From contig CABZEU010000004.1 of assembly GCA_902524795.1 (NCBI GenBank), positions 1 through 64,000 of the forward strand: 64,000 bases of DNA. Direction: 5' to 3'. Each line of letters begins with the position of its first letter. Position 1 is the stretch's first letter. The translations under genes and the position numbers were made by a program. Shown piece after piece: positions 5,817 to 53,502 of this stretch. Below the pieces are notes generated by a model, which saw only the letters and a list, made by a program, of their open reading frames with translations, was not told the DNA's origin and ran no database searches. The DNA is from an uncultured Pelagibacteraceae bacterium. GTDB lineage: Bacteria; Pseudomonadota; Alphaproteobacteria; Pelagibacterales; AG-422-B15.

Positions 5817-7189
5817 AATAAATATATTGAAGCTAATCCTAAGAAAGACAGAAATCCAAACACATCTGTAATTGTTGTTACAAATACACTTGAAGCAAGG
5901 GCAGGATCAATTTTAATTCTATTGAAAACATATGGAATAAGGAAACCAAAAAAACCAGCTGATAAAATATTAATAATCATTGCTGCGCCTACAATAATTG
6001 AAAGGGACAAGTCTTCAAACCAAATCAATGCAGCTACGCCGGTAAGAATAGCAAATATAAATCCGTTTAAAATGGAAATTCCAATCTCCTTTATAAATAC
6101 TTTCCTTCTGTTATTTTCAACAAGTTCTTTTGTCGCCAGAGAACGCACTGTTAAGGTAAGTGTCTGAGTTCCTGCGTTGCCACCCATAGAAGCAACTATT
6201 GGCATTAAAACAGCAAGTGCTACCATTTTTTCGATGCTAGCGTCAAAAAGGCTAATTACATATGAAGCTAATATTGCAGTTAATAAATTTATAAATAGCC
6301 AGATAAACCTTCTTTTTGTTGATCTTCCAATAGATTGGTTCATCTCACTTTCAGCAACGCCTCCTAATCTAAGAATATCTTCTTCAGCTTCCTCTTGAAG
6401 AACCCATACGATATCATCTGCCGTAATTCTTCCAATTAATCGATTTTGATCGTCAACTACACCAGCTGAAACTAATGAATATTGCTCAAAGAATAATGCT
6501 ACTTCTTCTTGATCCATAGAGGCCTTGACGAACTTTGGGCTGTCTTCCAGTATATCGCTTAGCTTTGTATCTCTCTGTGAGCGAAGTACTTTAGATACTG
6601 ATGCACTACCCAATGGTTTATTTGATGGATCAACAATAAATAATTCAAAAAAATCATCTGGTAAATCTATTTCTTTTCTCAAATAGTCAATTGCTTGACC
6701 CACAGACCAGAAACCAGGCATTGATACAAATTCTTTTTGCATTCGTCTTCCCGCCGTATCTTCAGGGTAATTAAGGCTCTCCTCAAAAATGACACGATCT
6801 AATGGATTTACTTGATCTAGTATTTTTTTCTTTGATTTGGGCTCCAGGGACTCAATCAAATTGATTGCATCATCAGTTTCCATTTCACTGATTGATCTTG
6901 CGACTTTTTTTTCCTCTAAATTTTGAACAGTTTCGTCAATAATAGTGTCATCTAATTCCGCTAATACCTCTGTATATCGATCTTCCTTGAGAGTTCCAAG
7001 AATGTATGATCGTTGATCTGTATTCAGAAAAGTAAGTAAATCTGCTAAATCTGCAGGATGCAGAGGCTTAATAAGATCTTCGAGGTTTGCCCTATTTTCT
7101 TCATTACAATTAGCAATGACCGCATTGATCAGCTTATTGTTAAATGTAATATTTTCATTTTGAGAAAGATCACTACTGATTTCATTCAT
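5813..7189 (-). CDS. mgtE: Magnesium transporter MgtE
   Basis: MgtE N-domain, CBS domains, membrane domain with MPIVASMGGNAGTQTLTLTVRSLA. Confidence 0.96.
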   Translation of the reverse strand: MNEISSDLSQNENITFNNKLINAVIANCNEENRANLEDLIKPLHPADLADLLTFLNTDQRSYILGTLKEDRYTEVLAELDDTIIDETVQNLEEKKVARSISEMETDDAINLIESLEPKSKKKILDQVNPLDRVIFEESLNYPEDTAGRRMQKEFVSMPGFWSVGQAIDYLRKEIDLPDDFFELFIVDPSNKPLGSASVSKVLRSQRDTKLSDILEDSPKFVKASMDQEEVALFFEQYSLVSAGVVDDQNRLIGRITADDIVWVLQEEAEEDILRLGGVAESEMNQSIGRSTKRRFIWLFINLLTAILASYVISLFDASIEKMVALAVLMPIVASMGGNAGTQTLTLTVRSLATKELVENNRRKVFIKEIGISILNGFIFAILTGVAALIWFEDLSLSIIVGAAMIINILSAGFFGFLIPYVFNRIKIDPALASSVFVTTITDVFGFLSFLGLASIYLF

Positions 7190-7233
7190 AATTTCCTTTA
7201 TTTATATTAAAATAGTTTATTATCCAGGAAAAC

Positions 7234-7866
7234 ATGGAATTAAAAATAAGTACTAACCCACAAGATTACCTTGAATGTCTTAAAAACATGGAAAATAGGG
7301 TGAATCAAATAATTGAAAATAAGTCAGATGAATTAGTCTGGATGCTAAATCATCCAACTATATATACCTCTGGTTCTAAAGATAATACTGATGATCTAAT
7401 TGATTCACAAAGTTTCCCAGTTATTCAAACTAATAGAGGAGGCAAGTATACCTACCACGGTCCTGGTCAGAGAATTGTATACTTGATGCTTAATTTAAAT
7501 AATAGAACAAAGGATATAAAAAAGTTTGTATCTTCAATTGAAAGTATCATTATAAATACTTTAAAGACTTTCAATATTGATGGAATTAGCTTAACTAAAC
7601 ATCACGGCGTGTTTGTAAAAAAAATAGATAATAAATATTATAAAATTGCGAGCATAGGGCTTAAATTTAAAAAGTGGGTAACCTATCACGGTTTTTCTAT
7701 AAATATTAATCCTAACCTGAGTCACTATAAAGGGATAAGACCTTGTGGCCTTGATAGTGAATACGTTACCAGTTTCTATGACCTAGGATTCGATATTGAT
7801 ATTGAAGACTTTGATGATATCCTGGTTAAAAATATTTTTGAAACTTTTAATGAATTACACACTTAA
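7234..7866 (+). CDS. lipB: Lipoyl(octanoyl) transferase
   Basis: RGGKYTYHGPGQRIVYLMLNL, KIASIGLKFKKWVTYHGFSINI, PCGL. Confidence 0.95.
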   Translation: MELKISTNPQDYLECLKNMENRVNQIIENKSDELVWMLNHPTIYTSGSKDNTDDLIDSQSFPVIQTNRGGKYTYHGPGQRIVYLMLNLNNRTKDIKKFVSSIESIIINTLKTFNIDGISLTKHHGVFVKKIDNKYYKIASIGLKFKKWVTYHGFSININPNLSHYKGIRPCGLDSEYVTSFYDLGFDIDIEDFDDILVKNIFETFNELHT

Positions 7867-8944
7867 CATTAAAAAAAACAATAAAAATTCACTTTGCATT
7901 TTATTAAATGGCAAAAAATATGAAGTCAATTCTCAATGGCTTTATGAGCATAGTGACAATGCAGAAATAAGGGACCCCTATACTAAACAGTTATTAATTG
8001 AAGCAGCTGAAATAAGCCCATCATTAAAAATCATTGATGCTCAAATAGAAAAGGAAACATTGGCAATTACTTTTTCCGATAATTCTCAGCATAATTATAA
8101 AATAAACTATATATATTCACAACTTAAAAAAGCGCCCGTGAGTGAAGATAAGTACCTTTGGAATAAAAAAAATCTTAAGGTTCCAAAGTATAATTTTAAG
8201 AACATAAATAATAAAATGCTATATGATATAATGTCTAGCGTTGATAAATTAGGATTTTGTTTAGTGAGGAATATACCTAAAAAGAAAAACGGATTAAATG
8301 AATTAATGAAACTCATTGGTCCAGTAAAAAGGACAAATTGGGGTGGGATTGCAGATGTTAAAAATATAAATAAGGCTTACGATCTAACTATGACAACCAG
8401 AGGTCTTGAGAATCATACAGACAACCCCTATCGATTTCCAACTCAAGGCTATATTTTTCTACATTGTATTGAAAATGCAAATAATGGTGGTGAGAATACT
8501 ATAACTGATGGTTTTAATATTGCTAATATTCTCAGAAAGAGGCATAAAAAATACTTTGATACCCTTACATCATTTAATACTTTTTTTAGATATGCTGATA
8601 AAAATGCTCATCTTGAAAATAAATGTAAACTTATTGAATTGGACGATGATAATAATATTTGTCAAATACGATATAACAATAGAACTGAAGTTATGCCTTA
8701 TGAAAATAATAAAAGATTAAATGAATATATAAAAGCGAGAAGAAAATTTTGGGACTTGATTAAAGACTCCAAAAATAATATCGAAATAAAGCAAATGTCA
8801 GGTGATATGTTAATTCTTGATAACTATAGAGTTTTGCATGGAAGAAAAAGTTATAAAGATCGAGAAAATAAAAGATACTTTAGGCAAGGTTATATGGACA
8901 GAGATATATTTCAAAGCAAATTAAAAACGGCAACTAGTTCTTAA
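7850..8944 (+). CDS. Gamma-butyrobetaine hydroxylase-like / TauD family 2-oxoglutarate dioxygenase
   Basis: N-terminal DUF971-like region plus HTDNPYRFPTQGYIFLHC...GGENTITDGF and NYRVLHGRKSY; the ATG at 7850 fits better than 7796. Confidence 0.85.
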   Translation: MNYTLNIKKNNKNSLCILLNGKKYEVNSQWLYEHSDNAEIRDPYTKQLLIEAAEISPSLKIIDAQIEKETLAITFSDNSQHNYKINYIYSQLKKAPVSEDKYLWNKKNLKVPKYNFKNINNKMLYDIMSSVDKLGFCLVRNIPKKKNGLNELMKLIGPVKRTNWGGIADVKNINKAYDLTMTTRGLENHTDNPYRFPTQGYIFLHCIENANNGGENTITDGFNIANILRKRHKKYFDTLTSFNTFFRYADKNAHLENKCKLIELDDDNNICQIRYNNRTEVMPYENNKRLNEYIKARRKFWDLIKDSKNNIEIKQMSGDMLILDNYRVLHGRKSYKDRENKRYFRQGYMDRDIFQSKLKTATSS

Positions 8945-10928
8945 ATAAGATCAGTTCCTCTTCAGCACTAACACTGTCACCGGCCTTAACTAGTATCTTT
9001 TCAATCACGCAATCTTTTTCACTTTTTAGAATATTTTCCATTTTCATAGCTTCTATTATTAGTAATTGATCGGCGTTTTTCACCTTCTGACCCTCAATAA
9101 CATCAACTGATTTAATCAATCCAGGCATGGGTGACATTAATTTCTTAGATAAGTCTTCTTTTGCGTCTTTTGGCATTAACTTAAGAAGGTCTTTTTGTGT
9201 ACTTTGAACTACAACTGTTTTTGTCCTACAATCTAAAAAACTTACATCCGAAGTATGCATATTAATAAGATCATTTATTTTAAAATAAAATATTTCTTCA
9301 TTTACTTTAAATGAACACAGTTTTTGATTTAAATTGAATGAAGATTCTACTTTAATTTTTTTCTTGTTAATCTCAATTAACAAAGACAACGAATTATTAA
9401 CAATAGCTGCCTCATTCACGAAAGTATCTAAATAGTCTTCATAAATTTTAACACTGAATTTTTTGCTTATGACATTACTTAAATTAAAAGATTGTTTTGC
9501 ATAAATAAGCATTGCAATAATTCCGAATTTTAGACGCTTATCATCCGTCATTGTCAAATTTGATGAATAGCCATTCTTAAATTTTTCTTTAATGAAATTA
9601 GTACTTATTTCCCCTTTTTGAAATTTTTTGTCTTCTAAAATAGCTATTAAGAAATCGATATTATTTTCTAAGCCTGAAAGATAGTAGTTTTGAAGTGAAT
9701 TGATCATTAGATTGATAGCACTTATTCTGTCTTTGCTATGAATAGCTAATTTCGAAATCATGGGGTCATAGTACAATGAAACCTCAGATCCTGGATTAAT
9801 GCCTGTGTCATTTCTTATCACTTCATAATCTTTTTCAATTTTTTTAGGTTCGATATATCTAGTGACTCTTCCAATTGAGGGAAGAAAGTCCTTCGTAGGA
9901 TCCTCTGCATAAATTCTGGACTCAATTGACCAACCATTTAGCTTTACATCTTCTTGTCGGATAGCTAATTTCTTATTATCTGCGCTCAAGATCATTTGCT
10001 CAACCAAATCAATACCTGTAACTAGTTCTGTTACAGGATGTTCAACTTGTAATCTTGTATTCATCTCTAAGAAATAGAAGTTCTTTTTTGAGTCTACAAC
10101 GAATTCGACAGTACCAGCTGAGTCATACTTGACCTCTTTAGCGAGTATTAGGGCCTGACTTGCCATTTCACTTCTCATATCTTCATCAACAAATGGTGAC
10201 GGACATTCCTCAATAACTTTCTGATATCTTCGTTGAATCGAACATTCTCTTTCACCTAAATGAATCTGATTTCCATGCTTATCACAAAGTATTTGAATTT
10301 CTATGTGTCTTGGTTGCTCAATATATTTCTCAATAAATACTCGATCATCTCCAAAACTTTTCTTTGACTCGCTCTTTGCAGCAATGAAGTTCTCCTCTAG
10401 TTCTCTATCTTTTCTTACAATCCTCATTCCCTTTCCACCACCTCCTGCTGAGGCTTTTAATAGAACTGGAAATCCAATTTTTTTTGAAATCTTGAGAGCT
10501 TCTGAAGCATTTTTTACTGGCGCAGTGTGGCCAGGAATTACATTGAGTTTTAATTTTATGGCAAGATTCTTCGATTCAATTTTGTCACCCATTTTTTTTA
10601 TTGCCATTTGATTTGGTCCAATGAACTTAATGTTTTCTTTTTTTAGCCTGTTAACGAACGGTGCATTCTCAGATAGGAAACCGTAGCCTGGATGAATAGC
10701 TTCTGATTTTGATTTTTTAGCTATTGATATAATTTTATCTGCATTAAGATATGAGTCACTTGGTTGCGAACCTCCAAGATAATAAGATTCATCTGCTTGT
10801 TTGACAAATAGGGCATCTTTATCTGCATCAGAATATACCGCGACTGTTTTTATTTTTAGTTTCTTAGCAGTTTTTATCACTCTGCAGGCTATTTCGCCTC
10901 TATTGGCTATCAAAATTTTTCTTATCAT
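8934..10928 (-). CDS. pccA: Acetyl/propionyl-CoA carboxylase alpha subunit (biotin carboxylase + BCCP)
   Basis: IRKILIANRGEIACRVI, KASAGGGGKGMRIV, EMNTRLQVEHPVTE, C-terminal biotinylation motif EAMKMENIL. Confidence 0.95.
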   Translation of the reverse strand: MIRKILIANRGEIACRVIKTAKKLKIKTVAVYSDADKDALFVKQADESYYLGGSQPSDSYLNADKIISIAKKSKSEAIHPGYGFLSENAPFVNRLKKENIKFIGPNQMAIKKMGDKIESKNLAIKLKLNVIPGHTAPVKNASEALKISKKIGFPVLLKASAGGGGKGMRIVRKDRELEENFIAAKSESKKSFGDDRVFIEKYIEQPRHIEIQILCDKHGNQIHLGERECSIQRRYQKVIEECPSPFVDEDMRSEMASQALILAKEVKYDSAGTVEFVVDSKKNFYFLEMNTRLQVEHPVTELVTGIDLVEQMILSADNKKLAIRQEDVKLNGWSIESRIYAEDPTKDFLPSIGRVTRYIEPKKIEKDYEVIRNDTGINPGSEVSLYYDPMISKLAIHSKDRISAINLMINSLQNYYLSGLENNIDFLIAILEDKKFQKGEISTNFIKEKFKNGYSSNLTMTDDKRLKFGIIAMLIYAKQSFNLSNVISKKFSVKIYEDYLDTFVNEAAIVNNSLSLLIEINKKKIKVESSFNLNQKLCSFKVNEEIFYFKINDLINMHTSDVSFLDCRTKTVVVQSTQKDLLKLMPKDAKEDLSKKLMSPMPGLIKSVDVIEGQKVKNADQLLIIEAMKMENILKSEKDCVIEKILVKAGDSVSAEEELILFKN

Positions 10929-10930
10929 TT

Positions 10931-12463
10931 TTACAGTGGAATATTGTCGTGTTTTTTTAATGGCAAAGAAAGTTCTTTGTCTTTTAGATTCTCTAGGGCT
11001 GTTGCTATTCTCTTTCTTGTAGAGTGTGGTCTAATTACATCGTCAATAAATCCCCTTTTTGATGCAATAAATGGATTTGCAAATTGTTCTGTATAATCTT
11101 GTGTTCTTTTTTTTATTTTTTCCTTATCCTTAATTTCATTTCTATATAAAATTTCTGTCGCTCCTTTTGCTCCCATTACTGCAATTTCAGCACTAGGCCA
11201 TGCATAATTTAGATCTCCCCTGAGATGTTTTGATGACATCACAACATAGGCTCCTCCATATGCTTTTCTTGTAATAATCGTTATCTTGGGAACGGTAGCT
11301 TCGGCATATGCAAATAATAACTTTGCGCCATTTTTTATAATTCCATTGTGTTCTTGAGATACACCTGGCAAGAAACCTGGAACATCAACAAAGGTTACAA
11401 TAGGAATATTAAAGCAATCACAAAATCTAACAAATCTTCCACCTTTTTTACCTGAGTCGATATCTAGACATCCGGCTAATACGAGCGGTTGGTTGGCAAC
11501 AAATCCAACAGTTCTGCCTTCAACTGTTCCAAATCCTGTAATAATATTTTTTGCATAATCTTTTTGAATTTCAAAGAAATAATTATTATCAACCACTTTT
11601 GTGATCAACTCCTTCATATCATATGGTTTATTTGGATTGTCAGGTACTAGAGTATCAAGAGAATAATCAGGACTTAAGTCCTGAAAATCTTTTTTATTAT
11701 TATTTGATTTCTCTCTATTGCTAGACGGTAGTAAATCAATAAGGTTCTTAACCTCGTGAAGAGTTTCAATATCATTATTAAAAGCTCCATCAGCAACCGA
11801 TGATTTTGATGTATGAGTTTTAGCTCCTCCAAGCTCTTCTTGACTTACATTTTCCTGTGTGACCGTTTTAACTACATCAGGTCCTGTAACGAACATAAAA
11901 GAAGTATTCTTAACCATAAAGATGAAATCTGTCATCGCGGGAGAGTAAACCGCACCACCCGCACATGGCCCCATAATAACAGATATTTGAGGAACAACAC
12001 CTGAAGCAAGAACATTTCTTTTAAAAACTTCTGCGTAGCCAGCAAGTGATGCAACGCCTTCTTGTATTCTTGCGCCACCTGAATCATTTATTCCTATAAT
12101 TGGTGCGCCCACTTTCATTGCCATATCCATAACTTTACAAATTTTTTCTGCATGAGCTTCTGATAGAGAGCCTCCAAAAACAGTAAAATCTTGACTAAAT
12201 ATATAAACGAGTTTCCCGTTTATTCTTCCACTACCTGTAACAACACCATCACCAGCATATTTCTGTTTTTCCATTCCAAAATCATTTGTTCGATGTTCTA
12301 CATACATGTCATATTCTTCAAAAGAGTCGTCATCTATAATGATATCTATTCTCTCTCTAGCAGTTAACTTTCCTCTAGCATGCTGAGCGTCTACGCGCTT
12401 CTTACCACCACCAAGTTTAGCTTGTTCTCTCTTTTTTTCTAATTCTTTGATTATGTCTGTCAT
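10931..12463 (-). CDS. pccB: Propionyl-CoA carboxylase beta subunit
   Basis: Carboxyltransferase: [82 protein letters not shown]. Confidence 0.96.
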
Positions 12464-12499
12464 GAACTCTATAATATATCATATATCTTAATTATCAAT

Positions 12500-13369
12500 T
12501 TATAAGTATTCTTCAAAGTGAGAAGGTAATTTTGCATTGATATTTACTTTTCGGTTATCTTGATCAACAAAGTTTAATTGACCTGCATGTAAAAATAAAT
12601 TCTTTTGAGTAGCATCTTTATTATATTGATAATATTTTTTATCCCCCAGTATTGGAGATTGATTTAAATAGCAATGCAGGCGAATTTGATGCTTTCTTCC
12701 TGAGGATGGTTGTAGCTTAATAAAATAAAGCTTATTTTTAAGTTCTTTTATTACTTCATACTTAGTACTCGCATCCAAAATTTTTCCCATCTTACTCAAT
12801 CTATCATTAAATATACCTTTATTCTTTTTTGGTTTATTTTTTACGATAGCAAAATATGTTTTTGTAATCTTTTTAGTTGATAGTAGCTTATGGAAAAATC
12901 TTGCTGCATTGAGATTTAAAGCAACAATTAACAATCCAGAAGTATCCTTGTCTAATCTGTGTACTAATTTTGGCGTATCGTTTTCAGTTGCAAGAAATTT
13001 GATTAAATCATCAATCGAAATATTAATTTTTGAACCTCTTTGACAGGCTATGCCGCTCCATTTATTTATTACGACAAAATTTTTATTTCTAAAAACAACA
13101 GATTTCTTAATTTTAGATTTTAAACTTTCTGGAACTGTAATATCTATATTCTTATCAACATTAGTTGTATATTCTTTAAATACTATAATTTGGTCAGCCT
13201 CTAGTAGCCTGTAATTACTACTTGATTTTTTTTTGTTTACTTTAATATTTTTTTTTCTGATTTCTCTTTGTATCAATGAAAAAGGGATTGCTAGTTGTTC
13301 CTTCAAAAATTTATCTAACCTTATTCCAGCTGAGTCTCTATCAACTATGATTAATTTTTTCGAGCTCAC
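12500..13369 (-). CDS. RluC/RluD-family 23S rRNA pseudouridine synthase
   Basis: S4-like N-terminus; LVHRLDKDTSGLLIVA; GRKHQIRLH. Confidence 0.93.
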   Translation of the reverse strand: MSSKKLIIVDRDSAGIRLDKFLKEQLAIPFSLIQREIRKKNIKVNKKKSSSNYRLLEADQIIVFKEYTTNVDKNIDITVPESLKSKIKKSVVFRNKNFVVINKWSGIACQRGSKINISIDDLIKFLATENDTPKLVHRLDKDTSGLLIVALNLNAARFFHKLLSTKKITKTYFAIVKNKPKKNKGIFNDRLSKMGKILDASTKYEVIKELKNKLYFIKLQPSSGRKHQIRLHCYLNQSPILGDKKYYQYNKDATQKNLFLHAGQLNFVDQDNRKVNINAKLPSHFEEYL

Positions 13370-42399: not shown

Positions 42400-43173
42400 A
42401 TGAGGAATAGATTTAAAAAACTCCCTAAAAAAAGGCAAAATTCAGACTACTGGATTTATGGCCATCATGCTGTTGTTGGCGCTATAAATAATAATAATAG
42501 AATAAAATATGAAATAAACTTCACAATTGAAGCAGAAAAAAAGCTCTTTCAAGAAGTAGACATAAAAGAACTCAAATTTGCCAGGAGACATAGATCGAGA
42601 GAAGAAATTGAAAATCTACTAGGAGGCATTTCAAATCATCAAGGGATTTGCCTCAAAGTAGAAAAGCTTAAAGTGCCCGAGCTTAATGAAATTTTGGATA
42701 ATTGTAATAAGGAACACTCAATCATTGTCTTATTAGATCAGCTTGAAGACTCACAAAATGTAGGAGCAATTTTTCGTTCCGCCCTAGCATTTAAACTAGA
42801 CGGAATAATACTGACTCAAGATAACTCTGTAAGTGAAAATTCATTTTTAACGAAAGCTGCATCTAGTGGAGTTGATAAAGTTCCTTTTACAAAAATTAAA
42901 AATATAAGTTCTTGTATAAAAAAATTAAAACAATCTGGATATTGGATTTATGGCTTAGAAATGAATGCTGGTAAATCTTTAAAAGAAACAAAATTTCCTA
43001 AGAAGGTAGTAATTATTCTAGGTTCAGAAAATAAGGGCCTTAGGAAAATTACTACTTCACTATGCGATGAAATAATCAAAATTGATATAAGTGGTGAATT
43101 GGAAAGTTTAAATGTATCCAATACTGCTGCGATTGCATTTTATGATATTTCTAACTCAATTCTAAAGAGCTAG
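42400..43173 (+). CDS. TrmH/RlmB-family RNA 2'-O-methyltransferase
   Basis: SPOUT motifs: LLDQLEDSQNVGAIFRSALAF, ILGSENKGLRK, LNVSNTAAIAFY; N-terminal substrate-binding region YGHHAVVGAI. Confidence 0.94.
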   Translation: MRNRFKKLPKKRQNSDYWIYGHHAVVGAINNNNRIKYEINFTIEAEKKLFQEVDIKELKFARRHRSREEIENLLGGISNHQGICLKVEKLKVPELNEILDNCNKEHSIIVLLDQLEDSQNVGAIFRSALAFKLDGIILTQDNSVSENSFLTKAASSGVDKVPFTKIKNISSCIKKLKQSGYWIYGLEMNAGKSLKETKFPKKVVIILGSENKGLRKITTSLCDEIIKIDISGELESLNVSNTAAIAFYDISNSILKS

Positions 43174-43331: not shown

Positions 43332-43407
43332 GCCCCTATAGCTCAATTGGTAGAGCAATTGATTTGTAATCAATAGGTTCGCGGTTCAAGTCCGTGTGGG
43401 GGCACCA
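43332..43407 (+). tRNA. tRNA-Thr (TGT)
   Basis: GCCCCTATAGCTCAATTGGTAGAGCAATTGATTTGTAATCAATAGGTTCGCGGTTCAAGTCCGTGTGGGGGCACCA; encoded CCA. Confidence 0.96.
43355..43407 (+). repeat. Direct repeat copy 1 (anticodon arm to 3' CCA within tRNA-Thr)
   Basis: 52/53 identical to 44137-44189. Confidence 0.93.
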
Positions 43408-43422
43408 CTTAAATTAAAAAAT

Positions 43423-44022
43423 CTATTTCTCATCAATTACCCAGGCATAAACCTCTCCCTTTTTATGATGAGGGTGAATTAAATTATTAAACTTATGTTG
43501 GTATTTTTCTGAAAATTTACAAAAATGCCTTTCAGCAAGAACTTCAAAGCAATCAATTGCAATGTCTAAAGGCCACTCATCATAGTCATATCCATAAATC
43601 ATTATGACCTTTTTGCCTTGGAACCCTGAGTTAAGTAATTTTTTTATATCACCTAAAACACTTCCATCTCCTTCATACGGGGATAATAAATCAACCATTA
43701 TAAATTCCTCAGGAGTGCCATTATTTCGAAGTCTTCTCATTGCTTTAGCTTCAATAAAATAATTATTTTCATCAGACTGCCAGTAAATATCCAGCTTCTT
43801 TCTGCTTAAGTTTGGATATTTTTCTTCAGTTACAATCGAATCAAATATTTGATTTTGATTTTTCATTTCATCTGTAACCATTTTAATTAATTTTTTCTCC
43901 TGAAATGGTCCGATGCCGGGTGAATACTTTATATCTGGTTTTCTTGCATTGGAAGCTTGGGGCGCTTTAGCGTCAACTATCTCTATACATTTTGCAAAAT
44001 GGCTAATGAATTCCGAAATCAT
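43423..44022 (-). CDS. Putative PD-(D/E)XK-fold nuclease-like protein, otherwise uncharacterised
   Basis: LDIYWQSDENNYFIEAKAMRR matches the D-x(n)-E-x-K core pattern of PD-(D/E)XK enzymes; assignment by motif only. Confidence 0.55.
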   Translation of the reverse strand: MISEFISHFAKCIEIVDAKAPQASNARKPDIKYSPGIGPFQEKKLIKMVTDEMKNQNQIFDSIVTEEKYPNLSRKKLDIYWQSDENNYFIEAKAMRRLRNNGTPEEFIMVDLLSPYEGDGSVLGDIKKLLNSGFQGKKVIMIYGYDYDEWPLDIAIDCFEVLAERHFCKFSEKYQHKFNNLIHPHHKKGEVYAWVIDEK

Positions 44023-44136
44023 ACTAAGTAAATATTACTCCGAAAAAATACAAAACAAAAGTTGTGATAAAATTTAACCCAAAAATACTTATTCTATCAT
44101 TTTATGCTTTACAATCCCAACACCGCTAGACTGCGT

Positions 44137-44189
44137 GCAATTGATTTGTAATCAATAGATTCGCGGTTCAAGTCCGTGTGGGGGCACCA
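44137..44189 (+). repeat. Direct repeat copy 2: truncated tRNA-Thr 3' fragment (tRNA remnant)
   Basis: GCAATTGATTTGTAATCAATAGATTCGCGGTTCAAGTCCGTGTGGGGGCACCA; one mismatch to tRNA-Thr; 5' tRNA half absent. Confidence 0.93.
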
Positions 44190-44201: not shown

Positions 44202-44828
44202 CTAGTCTGTATAACCGTTAATTGACTTAGTCGTAGGACTTTTTGTAATAGATTTATTATCTTTTAGGGTTTTAAAAAAATAATCACCAATCATGTTGGT
44301 TATGCCCCAATTATAATTTTCATTATGAAAGTGGTGGCTCATATGTGCATCACGAAGACTTTTGCCGACTTTAGTTATAGGTTTATAGTTTTTTGAATGG
44401 TGTGCTAAGTGGATCCACTCGTACCAAAGATGGTAAATCAGATGTCCGGTAAATGGGACGATAGCTGCACCAAAGCTCCAAAAAATTAATGAGTAAAACA
44501 AATAAACCTGACCATATGTATAGATTAAATATCTCCAAGGTGCGAACTGGAGTTTTATATTATCAGGATCTCGATGATGTCCATGATGAAGAACTATTTG
44601 GTATCTTCTATACCAACCATCTTTCTTTGTAAGCTCAACGTGTAACTGATATTTGTGAACATACCATTCATAAAATGGAGCAAGAAGTATTGGAATAAAT
44701 ATCCAGATTAAATAGTCATTTATAAGACCTGTATTAAATATATAAAATACGCCTAATACAGCCATCAGTATAAAGCCTACTACGGTTGAGTGAGAAAAAT
44801 AATTTTTGAATACAGTACTCATATTCAT
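44202..44828 (-). CDS. Fatty acid hydroxylase / sterol desaturase superfamily membrane protein
   Basis: Histidine clusters HHGHH, HLAHH, HMSHHFH with several TM segments. Confidence 0.85.
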   Translation of the reverse strand: MNMSTVFKNYFSHSTVVGFILMAVLGVFYIFNTGLINDYLIWIFIPILLAPFYEWYVHKYQLHVELTKKDGWYRRYQIVLHHGHHRDPDNIKLQFAPWRYLIYTYGQVYLFYSLIFWSFGAAIVPFTGHLIYHLWYEWIHLAHHSKNYKPITKVGKSLRDAHMSHHFHNENYNWGITNMIGDYFFKTLKDNKSITKSPTTKSINGYTD

Positions 44829-52794: not shown

Positions 52795-53502
52795 ATGTCA
52801 AAAATTGCTAATCAATATATCTCAGGGAGATTGATTAAAAGGTATAAGAGATTTTTTGCAGATATTCAACTCGATAATAATAAAGAAGCCATAACTGCAC
52901 ATTGTCCCAATACAGGTTCCATGCAAGGTCTTCTCGATGAAGGCAATCCTGTTTTCGTAACGAAAGCAGACGATCCAAAACGTAAATTAAAATATACTCT
53001 TGAGATTATAAAATCTGGCAATGCAAACGTTGGTGTCAATACGCACAAAGCCAACAGAATTGTGGAGGATGCAATCGAATTGTATCTAATTCCTGAATTA
53101 GGTAAATACGATTCATATAAAAGAGAAGTTAAATACGGAACTAATTCCCGCATTGATTTTCTACTAAGTGATGGTGATAAACAAACTTATGTAGAAGTAA
53201 AAAATGTAACGTTATCAAGAAAAAAAGAAACGGCTGAATTTCCAGATGCAATTACAGATAGAGGCTCCAAGCATTTGATCGAACTTTCAAAGCTGCCCAG
53301 CAAAAATACAAGAGCAGTTATGTTATTTCTCATTCAAAGAGATGATTGTAAAAAATTTCAAATCGCAAGTGATATTGATAAGACATACCATGACAACTTT
53401 AAAAAAGTCATAAAAAGGGGAGTAGAAATAATATGTTATAACTGTTCTTTTGAAAGTGACAAAATTCGTGTAAATAAAAAAATAAAACTCATTAATGAAT
53501 AA
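52795..53502 (+). CDS. sfsA: Sugar fermentation stimulation protein homolog SfsA
   Basis: RYKRFFADIQLDN, AHCPNTGSM, RIDFLL, YVEVKNVTL, FPDAITDRGSKHLIEL. Confidence 0.96.
   Translation: MSKIANQYISGRLIKRYKRFFADIQLDNNKEAITAHCPNTGSMQGLLDEGNPVFVTKADDPKRKLKYTLEIIKSGNANVGVNTHKANRIVEDAIELYLIPELGKYDSYKREVKYGTNSRIDFLLSDGDKQTYVEVKNVTLSRKKETAEFPDAITDRGSKHLIELSKLPSKNTRAVMLFLIQRDDCKKFQIASDIDKTYHDNFKKVIKRGVEIICYNCSFESDKIRVNKKIKLINE

Follow-up and report, generated by a model that had tools for sequence, protein, structure and literature searches.

What is the single small gene wedged between a tRNA-Thr gene and a conserved downstream gene in an uncultured Pelagibacteraceae bacterium, and how did it come to be there? 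The question is raised by the window, the whole 64,000-nucleotide stretch of DNA analyzed here (from an assembly of 1.11 Mb in 35 contigs, 80% complete), in which a first-pass annotation had read the gene as a solitary PD-(D/E)XK-like protein carried as island cargo. The gene, here called PDX, is a 199-codon minus-strand ORF with an ATG start, and contains the peptide LDIYWQSDENNYFIEAKAMRR quoted in that annotation; its position and those of the surrounding features are collected in Table 1.

Table 1. Features of the window around the PDX gene.
Feature	Position	Strand	Basis or remark
Conserved flank, 257-aa RlmB-type rRNA methyltransferase (name by sequence reading)	42400..43173	plus	upstream of the tRNA, in relatives too
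tRNA-Thr(TGT), integration target, attL side; repeated core is the 3' part, 43355-43407	43332..43407	plus	ARAGORN, direct repeat D1
782-bp cassette, from the tRNA 3' end through the end of the partial tRNA copy	43408..44189		empty site, repeat spacing 782
PDX, sole cassette gene, 199-aa PD-(D/E)XK-like protein	43423..44022	minus	ORF list, alignment, AlphaFold2, SfsA profile
Promoter-like site TTGGGA-18-TAGAAT upstream of the PDX gene	44091..44120	minus	weak; no more than chance
Left arm ATCCCAACACCGCTAGACTGCGTG, agreeing at 23/24 positions with the attP arm in L102, a pelagiphage-like contig	44114..44137	plus	20,000 shuffles, best 16
Partial tRNA-Thr copy on the attR side (52 nt of the 3' end), with a single mismatch	44138..44189	plus	direct repeat
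Conserved flank, FA_hydroxylase gene, 13 bp beyond the partial tRNA copy	44202..44828	minus	

PDX is a genuine gene rather than a chance ORF, with more than 20 relatives known and residues conserved across the 21 of them that were aligned (L022 and L025, which contain internal stops, were left out). Relatives were seen in two of 97 related genomes (G000, to which the window belongs, and G072); four haloarchaeal plasmids also have one, and a species-level genome collection gave 23 loci. The aligned set spans Alphaproteobacteria, Planctomycetota, Chloroflexi, Paenibacillus, Actinobacteria, Myxococcales, a Thermoplasmata archaeon and Halobacteria. Viral contigs and phage records yielded no relative, and thus PDX seems not to be a gene common among phages. 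Promoter-like sites numbered two, against a mean of 4.0 in shuffled sequence. The family has no matching model in Pfam, NCBIfam or PADLOC (no PADLOC match to PDX at E <= 0.1), and we regard it as a new, unnamed family of predicted nucleases.

The nuclease assignment draws on conservation, a structural model and profile comparison. Invariant positions in the alignment include, among others, E42, D78, E91, K93, R96, D125, K128, H183 and P184, and four of these (E42, D78, E91 and K93, each 21/21) make up the PD-(D/E)XK active-site pattern. An AlphaFold2 model computed from the 21-sequence alignment (pLDDT 91.9) displays a helix (42-56), three strands (64-69, 72-82 and 87-95), a second helix (122-130) and a further strand (137-145). 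Read from secondary structure, this order matches the alpha-beta-beta-beta-alpha-beta core of the PD-(D/E)XK fold, with D78 on the second core strand and E91 and K93 on the third. Nothing in Pfam scored above its cut-off. The closest family was SfsA (PF03749; E 0.016), and membership of PDX in SfsA was rejected because its 15.4 bits fall under the gathering cut-off of 22.8. A profile comparison with SfsA drawn from 20 genomes gave an E of 8e-5, placing D78 on the SfsA D and E91-x-K93 on its ExK, whereas 11 unrelated families used as a control gave E >= 0.038. A profile search for solved relatives returned none of use (best E 0.55). Separately from PDX, the window contains a true SfsA domain at 53050-53460 (Pfam 3.3e-48).

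The D...ExK nuclease core claimed by the first-pass annotation is supported by the invariant catalytic residues, the modeled topology and the in-register SfsA match. The same annotation had named a non-nuclease fold or unconserved catalytic residues as grounds for abandoning its claim, and here the outcome is mixed: the residues are conserved and the core topology is that of a nuclease, but Foldseek with the PDX model found nothing at E <= 0.001 in the PDB or in the viral BFVD (SfsA ranked 11th in the PDB, at E 0.08), which counts against the nuclease reading. On balance, the sequence and the model give good support to PDX as a divergent PD-(D/E)XK protein whose active-site pattern is intact, and hence as a predicted nuclease.

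As to how the gene arrived, a 782-bp unit has been precisely inserted at tRNA-Thr(TGT). Its boundaries are the two copies, 782 bp apart, of a direct repeat (59 nt, 97% identity) that covers the 3' end of tRNA-Thr plus the bases following it. Removal of these 782 bp from the window leaves a sequence that is identical to the closest empty site examined (L069, from genome G039) at 558 of 600 positions, gap-free across the junction. The "island" of the earlier reading is accordingly this one cassette, which encodes PDX and no integrase. That reading had also called the protein solitary and without a methyltransferase partner: within the cassette both descriptions hold, but the SAR11 relatives of PDX are usually accompanied, and the genome has a separate C5 methyltransferase on another contig. 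The C5 gene (contig C1 of G000, L154:6827-8561) overlaps an ORF of 229 aa whose sequence suggests a PD-(D/E)XK endonuclease, and the two probably form a restriction-modification pair of this genome. Since it has an endonuclease-like ORF of its own beside it, the C5 gene need not be the partner of PDX, and on this sequence reading the idea that PDX serves as its endonuclease is weakened. C5 genes are present in 17 of the 97 related genomes and in both PDX genomes (P = 0.03, though two genomes are too small a basis to give this weight).

We compared the tRNA-Thr region of the window with 33 stretches from 32 genomes of the same genus (G034 gave two). The 3' end of the tRNA was sought with a 49-nt pattern allowing up to 3 mismatches within the genus and with a 34-nt pattern in the order. 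The reversed pattern, run as a control, matched nowhere in 43 genus or 147 order genomes, and so the tRNA-end repeats are not a product of chance. One or more partial 3' ends were found in at least 13 of 33 genomes, the window included; the local repeat scan tolerated up to 5 mismatches in 30, so that cassettes that are older and decayed escape it and 13 is a minimum. Eight loci (L065, L066, L067, L069, L076, L089, L091 and L092) are empty, with the FA_hydroxylase gene ending 6-13 bp after the tRNA.

The content of the site varies among relatives, which feature different cassettes as well as arrays. In genome G015 (L061), four cassettes (515, 513, 488 and 399 bp) follow one another within 2 kb. 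Other cargo in the genus includes a 90-aa protein, small membrane or lipoprotein-like proteins and an HNH endonuclease. The last of these is a 280-aa protein (Pfam HNH 1.4e-9) that is alone in a 909-bp cassette of G035 (L071) and resembles a PADLOC model for type IV methyl-directed restriction enzymes (3.6e-8). The gene for the 90-aa protein is placed, in both L061 and L068, toward the conserved downstream gene, a position that would fit entry of new units at the tRNA. In a sister family (f2), cassettes of 0.6 to 12 kb occupy the same tRNA, and none of their listed ORFs matched phage integrases or the two Xer-sized recombinases of the genome. Among 17 of these cassettes, pairs with non-homologous cargo (those linked by blastn at E 1e-3 being dropped) are 47% and 56% identical in the two 30-nt ends, compared to 29% (sd 8%) internally. 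Among Pelagibacteraceae tRNA-Thr cassettes (L107-L117), many that are otherwise unrelated have in common a 33-48-nt stretch that reads as coding for a signal-peptide start, MKKLLGIVVLGLL, as if different genes had been fused behind one leader.

PDX relatives are likewise found in cassettes at other RNA genes, so that RNA-gene cassettes hold the window copy and two of the three other SAR11-type copies (counting L010, whose record says Alphaproteobacteria only). One of these two, in the single-cell genome AG-349-F22 (L012), shares a cassette of 1,402 bp at tRNA-Ser(GGA) with a 184-aa homolog of methyl-directed restriction enzymes (PADLOC 1.1e-30), and a repeat of 75 nt at 99% marks the cassette boundaries. 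The other, in AG-404-D18 (L010), belongs to an array of six tandem units beside the tmRNA gene (6684-13205), in which a 24-nt tmRNA-end sequence recurs seven times at 75-100% identity; its unit also has one Exo_endo_phos and one HNH gene, arranged in overlapping order. Also encoded in this array is a 74-aa protein that resembles one from a tRNA-Thr cassette in the genus of the window. In AG-447-P22 (L008), where the contig starts at this point, the PDX relative follows a PDDEXK_4 gene.

Beyond these genomes, PDX relatives neighbor EcoRV-like endonucleases (L016 and L029), C5 methyltransferases (L017 and L029), Vsr (L017), a JetC2 and JetD-like pair (L013) and an HNH restriction homolog (L015). 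Three haloarchaeal plasmids (L003, L004 and L005) show a conserved pair in which a gene for a 455-456-aa GIY-YIG-like protein, scoring below the Pfam cut-off, and that of the PDX relative have overlapping ends. Of the four copies on haloarchaeal plasmids, three bear the annotation of transcriptional regulator, which is doubtful for the relatives in L003-L005 because their nuclease residues are conserved. The idea of a fixed partner gene was rejected, the neighbors being varied and some relatives lacking a close partner.

The attachment sites of phages bear on the mechanism of insertion. Eight IMG/VR contigs (L094, L096, L097, L098 and L100-L103) contain the 3' end of tRNA-Thr without its 5' half, as in an attP, and the core in these pelagiphage-like contigs is identical to the tRNA-Thr 3' end. 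On one side it is flanked by an ORF that reads as a T7-like RNA polymerase, and on the other, 58-78 bp away in the six contigs long enough to show it, by one that reads as a tyrosine integrase of 306-342 aa. Over the 24 nt of the left arm, the attP of L102 is matched at 23 positions by the window cassette, at all 24 by a 385-bp cassette of G044 (L118) and at 19 by cassette 1 of L061; the best of 20,000 shuffles each reached 16, 16 and 18, respectively, the arm length having been picked after the match was seen and the shuffles accounting for composition only. Both this comparison and the attP search were prompted by the first loci rather than preset. Whole-cassette blastn searches of the phage contigs found the same stretch independently, with E of 5e-7 to 2e-6 for the window and 6e-8 for L118. 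The similarity of the window cassette beside the core is confined to about 30 bp, and its right end does not resemble the phage right arm. The remaining cassettes of the genus agree with the phage arm at 6-13 of 24 positions, and most have no phage-like arm.

The left-arm match suggests that a phage-type integrase may act on the cassette in trans. As the arm-bearing sequences come from related genomes, the match offers support, not proof, for functional arms. The 80%-complete assembly contains two tyrosine recombinases, of 305 and 306 aa and on other contigs, which from their size and number we take for XerC and XerD; a further integrase may exist in the genome, given the incomplete assembly. 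In another genome (G022, L063), the first 95 bp after tRNA-Thr are 96% identical to the phage right arm and run into the 3' end of the integrase gene; this stretch is fused to a resident cassette that has lost its first bases, and is likely a trace of a deleted prophage. Viral contigs provided no attP for the tRNA-Ser site of L012. For the tRNA-Thr core of the sister family, 23 of 24 viral contigs carry a complete tRNA and L146 alone is attP-like, its arms resembling those of the sister-family cassettes in short stretches only.

The reading that we favor, and to which we give about an even chance, is that of a one-gene mobile cassette inserted in trans by a pelagiphage-type integrase and carrying a predicted defense endonuclease. 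The tyrosine integrase of such a phage would join the cassette core to the tRNA gene, with integration restoring an intact tRNA-Thr. PDX, as a metal-dependent DNA endonuclease, would cut incoming DNA, working alone in the window and alongside a second nuclease in SAR11 relatives. Since the cassette has no methyltransferase, PDX must spare self-DNA by other means; our guess is that PDX might, for example, depend on modified DNA. We infer an anti-phage or anti-plasmid role for it; its relatives adjoin restriction and defense genes at other loci. In favor of a mobile cassette are the repeat, the empty site, the tandem units, the fact that the two Xer-sized enzymes are the only tyrosine recombinases found in the assembly, the arm match, the integrase ORF close to attP in six viral contigs, the relatives at tRNA-Ser and tmRNA, and the common ends of sister-family cassettes with unrelated cargo. 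Against insertion in trans stand the lack of a phage-like right arm in the window, the armless state of most cassettes in the genus and the deleted-prophage look of L063.

The lone left arm of the window and the fusion in L063 are also what speaks for the main rival, a deleted prophage. On that account, which we consider possible if on the unlikely side, the cassette is the remnant of a larger prophage or island at tRNA-Thr, reduced by deletion in a shrinking genome that spared one gene and the outer ends, so that the arm match reflects ancestry and not current function. Yet the clean, unrelated small units seen elsewhere, such as the four in tandem within 2 kb and the six at tmRNA, would then need repeated deletions each sparing the repeats, and viral contigs and phage records yielded no relative of PDX.

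Two further alternatives concern the function of PDX rather than its mobility. Its frequent proximity to another nuclease (PDDEXK_4, the methyl-directed restriction enzyme homolog, Exo_endo_phos with HNH, the EcoRV-like enzymes, or the GIY-YIG-like proteins with overlapping ORFs) would suit a restriction-system accessory that normally helps or regulates a neighboring endonuclease, is an ineffective nuclease alone and has lost its partner here. The partners, however, are drawn from numerous unrelated families, and near some relatives there is none, while the catalytic residues of PDX itself are invariant; we judge such a role unlikely. More improbable still is a housekeeping or regulatory DNA-binding protein of the SfsA type with no part in defense. 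SfsA is the nearest known family by profile, and the regulator annotations of the haloarchaeal copies point the same way, but the genome already has a true SfsA, and PDX is confined to two of the 97 related genomes, with relatives adjoining restriction and defense genes elsewhere.

SAR11 is counted among the most abundant bacteria on Earth (PMC7029224), and prophages in SAR11 are reportedly rare (PMC7771536), which raises the matter of how these bacteria trade genes. A unit of less than 1 kb with a phage-attP-like arm and a defense-like nuclease as cargo offers a concrete, testable route of gene exchange in these bacteria, and points to a nuclease family that the libraries searched (Pfam, NCBIfam and PADLOC) do not cover. 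With related cassettes at tRNA and tmRNA genes across these ocean bacteria, defense-type genes seem to be shuffled singly or in small groups. A broader and rather doubtful extension is that the Pelagibacterales have an integron-like system that lacks its own integrase, in which small cassettes bearing phage-type attachment arms are built into arrays at tRNA and tmRNA genes by integrases from passing pelagiphages and some of the cargo consists of anti-phage nucleases. If true, the phage would provide the machinery that spreads its own countermeasure.

Several known systems resemble parts of this picture. The additive fGI-2 islands of Methylopumilus (PMC10872708) have tRNA 3'-end repeats, range from 330 bp to 42 kb with 1 to 63 CDS, and are mostly of unknown function; the Actinomarinales tRNA cassettes are likewise described as delimited by tRNA ends (PMC7771536). 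Both share with the window cassette the arrangement of one to many genes at a tRNA with a direct repeat of its 3' end; the window cassette differs in its SAR11-type genus, its tRNA-Thr target, its phage-attP-like arm and its nuclease cargo. A match between cassette and phage arms was not found described in those parts of the open-licence literature that were searched. Tycheposons, given as 4-200 kbp and, in Methylophilaceae, as characterized by a tyrosine recombinase (PMC10872708), are also tRNA-targeted cargo elements of streamlined marine bacteria, whereas the window cassette has 782 bp, one gene and no recombinase. Pelagiphages with an attP matching a host tRNA are reported (PMC3861242, PMC7029224), and CRP-810 is stated to integrate at tRNA-Thr (PMC11288001). 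Pelagiphages and the window cassette are alike in the core identical to the tRNA-Thr 3' end and in the nearly identical left arm; unlike a pelagiphage prophage, the cassette has a single ORF and no phage gene between attL and attR, and matches the phage over about 30 bp beside the core. Integron cassettes rely on attC and IntI; the repeat of the window cassette is a tRNA fragment.

On the side of the cargo, SfsA (PF03749) aligns with PDX in register at the D and ExK of the nuclease core, with PDX below the Pfam cut-off. Type II restriction-modification systems pair a methyltransferase with the nuclease gene, and the window cassette has none. In this it resembles the type IV or methyl-directed restriction enzymes, where a single nuclease gene likewise comes without a methyltransferase; PADLOC models of these enzymes match the L012 neighbor and the HNH cargo of L071, whereas PDX matches no PADLOC model. 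Gene cassettes delimited by tRNA ends and lone PD-(D/E)XK proteins are already known kinds, and what is new here is the unnamed family of predicted nucleases, the repeated capture of its members in cassettes and the match between cassette arm and phage arm.
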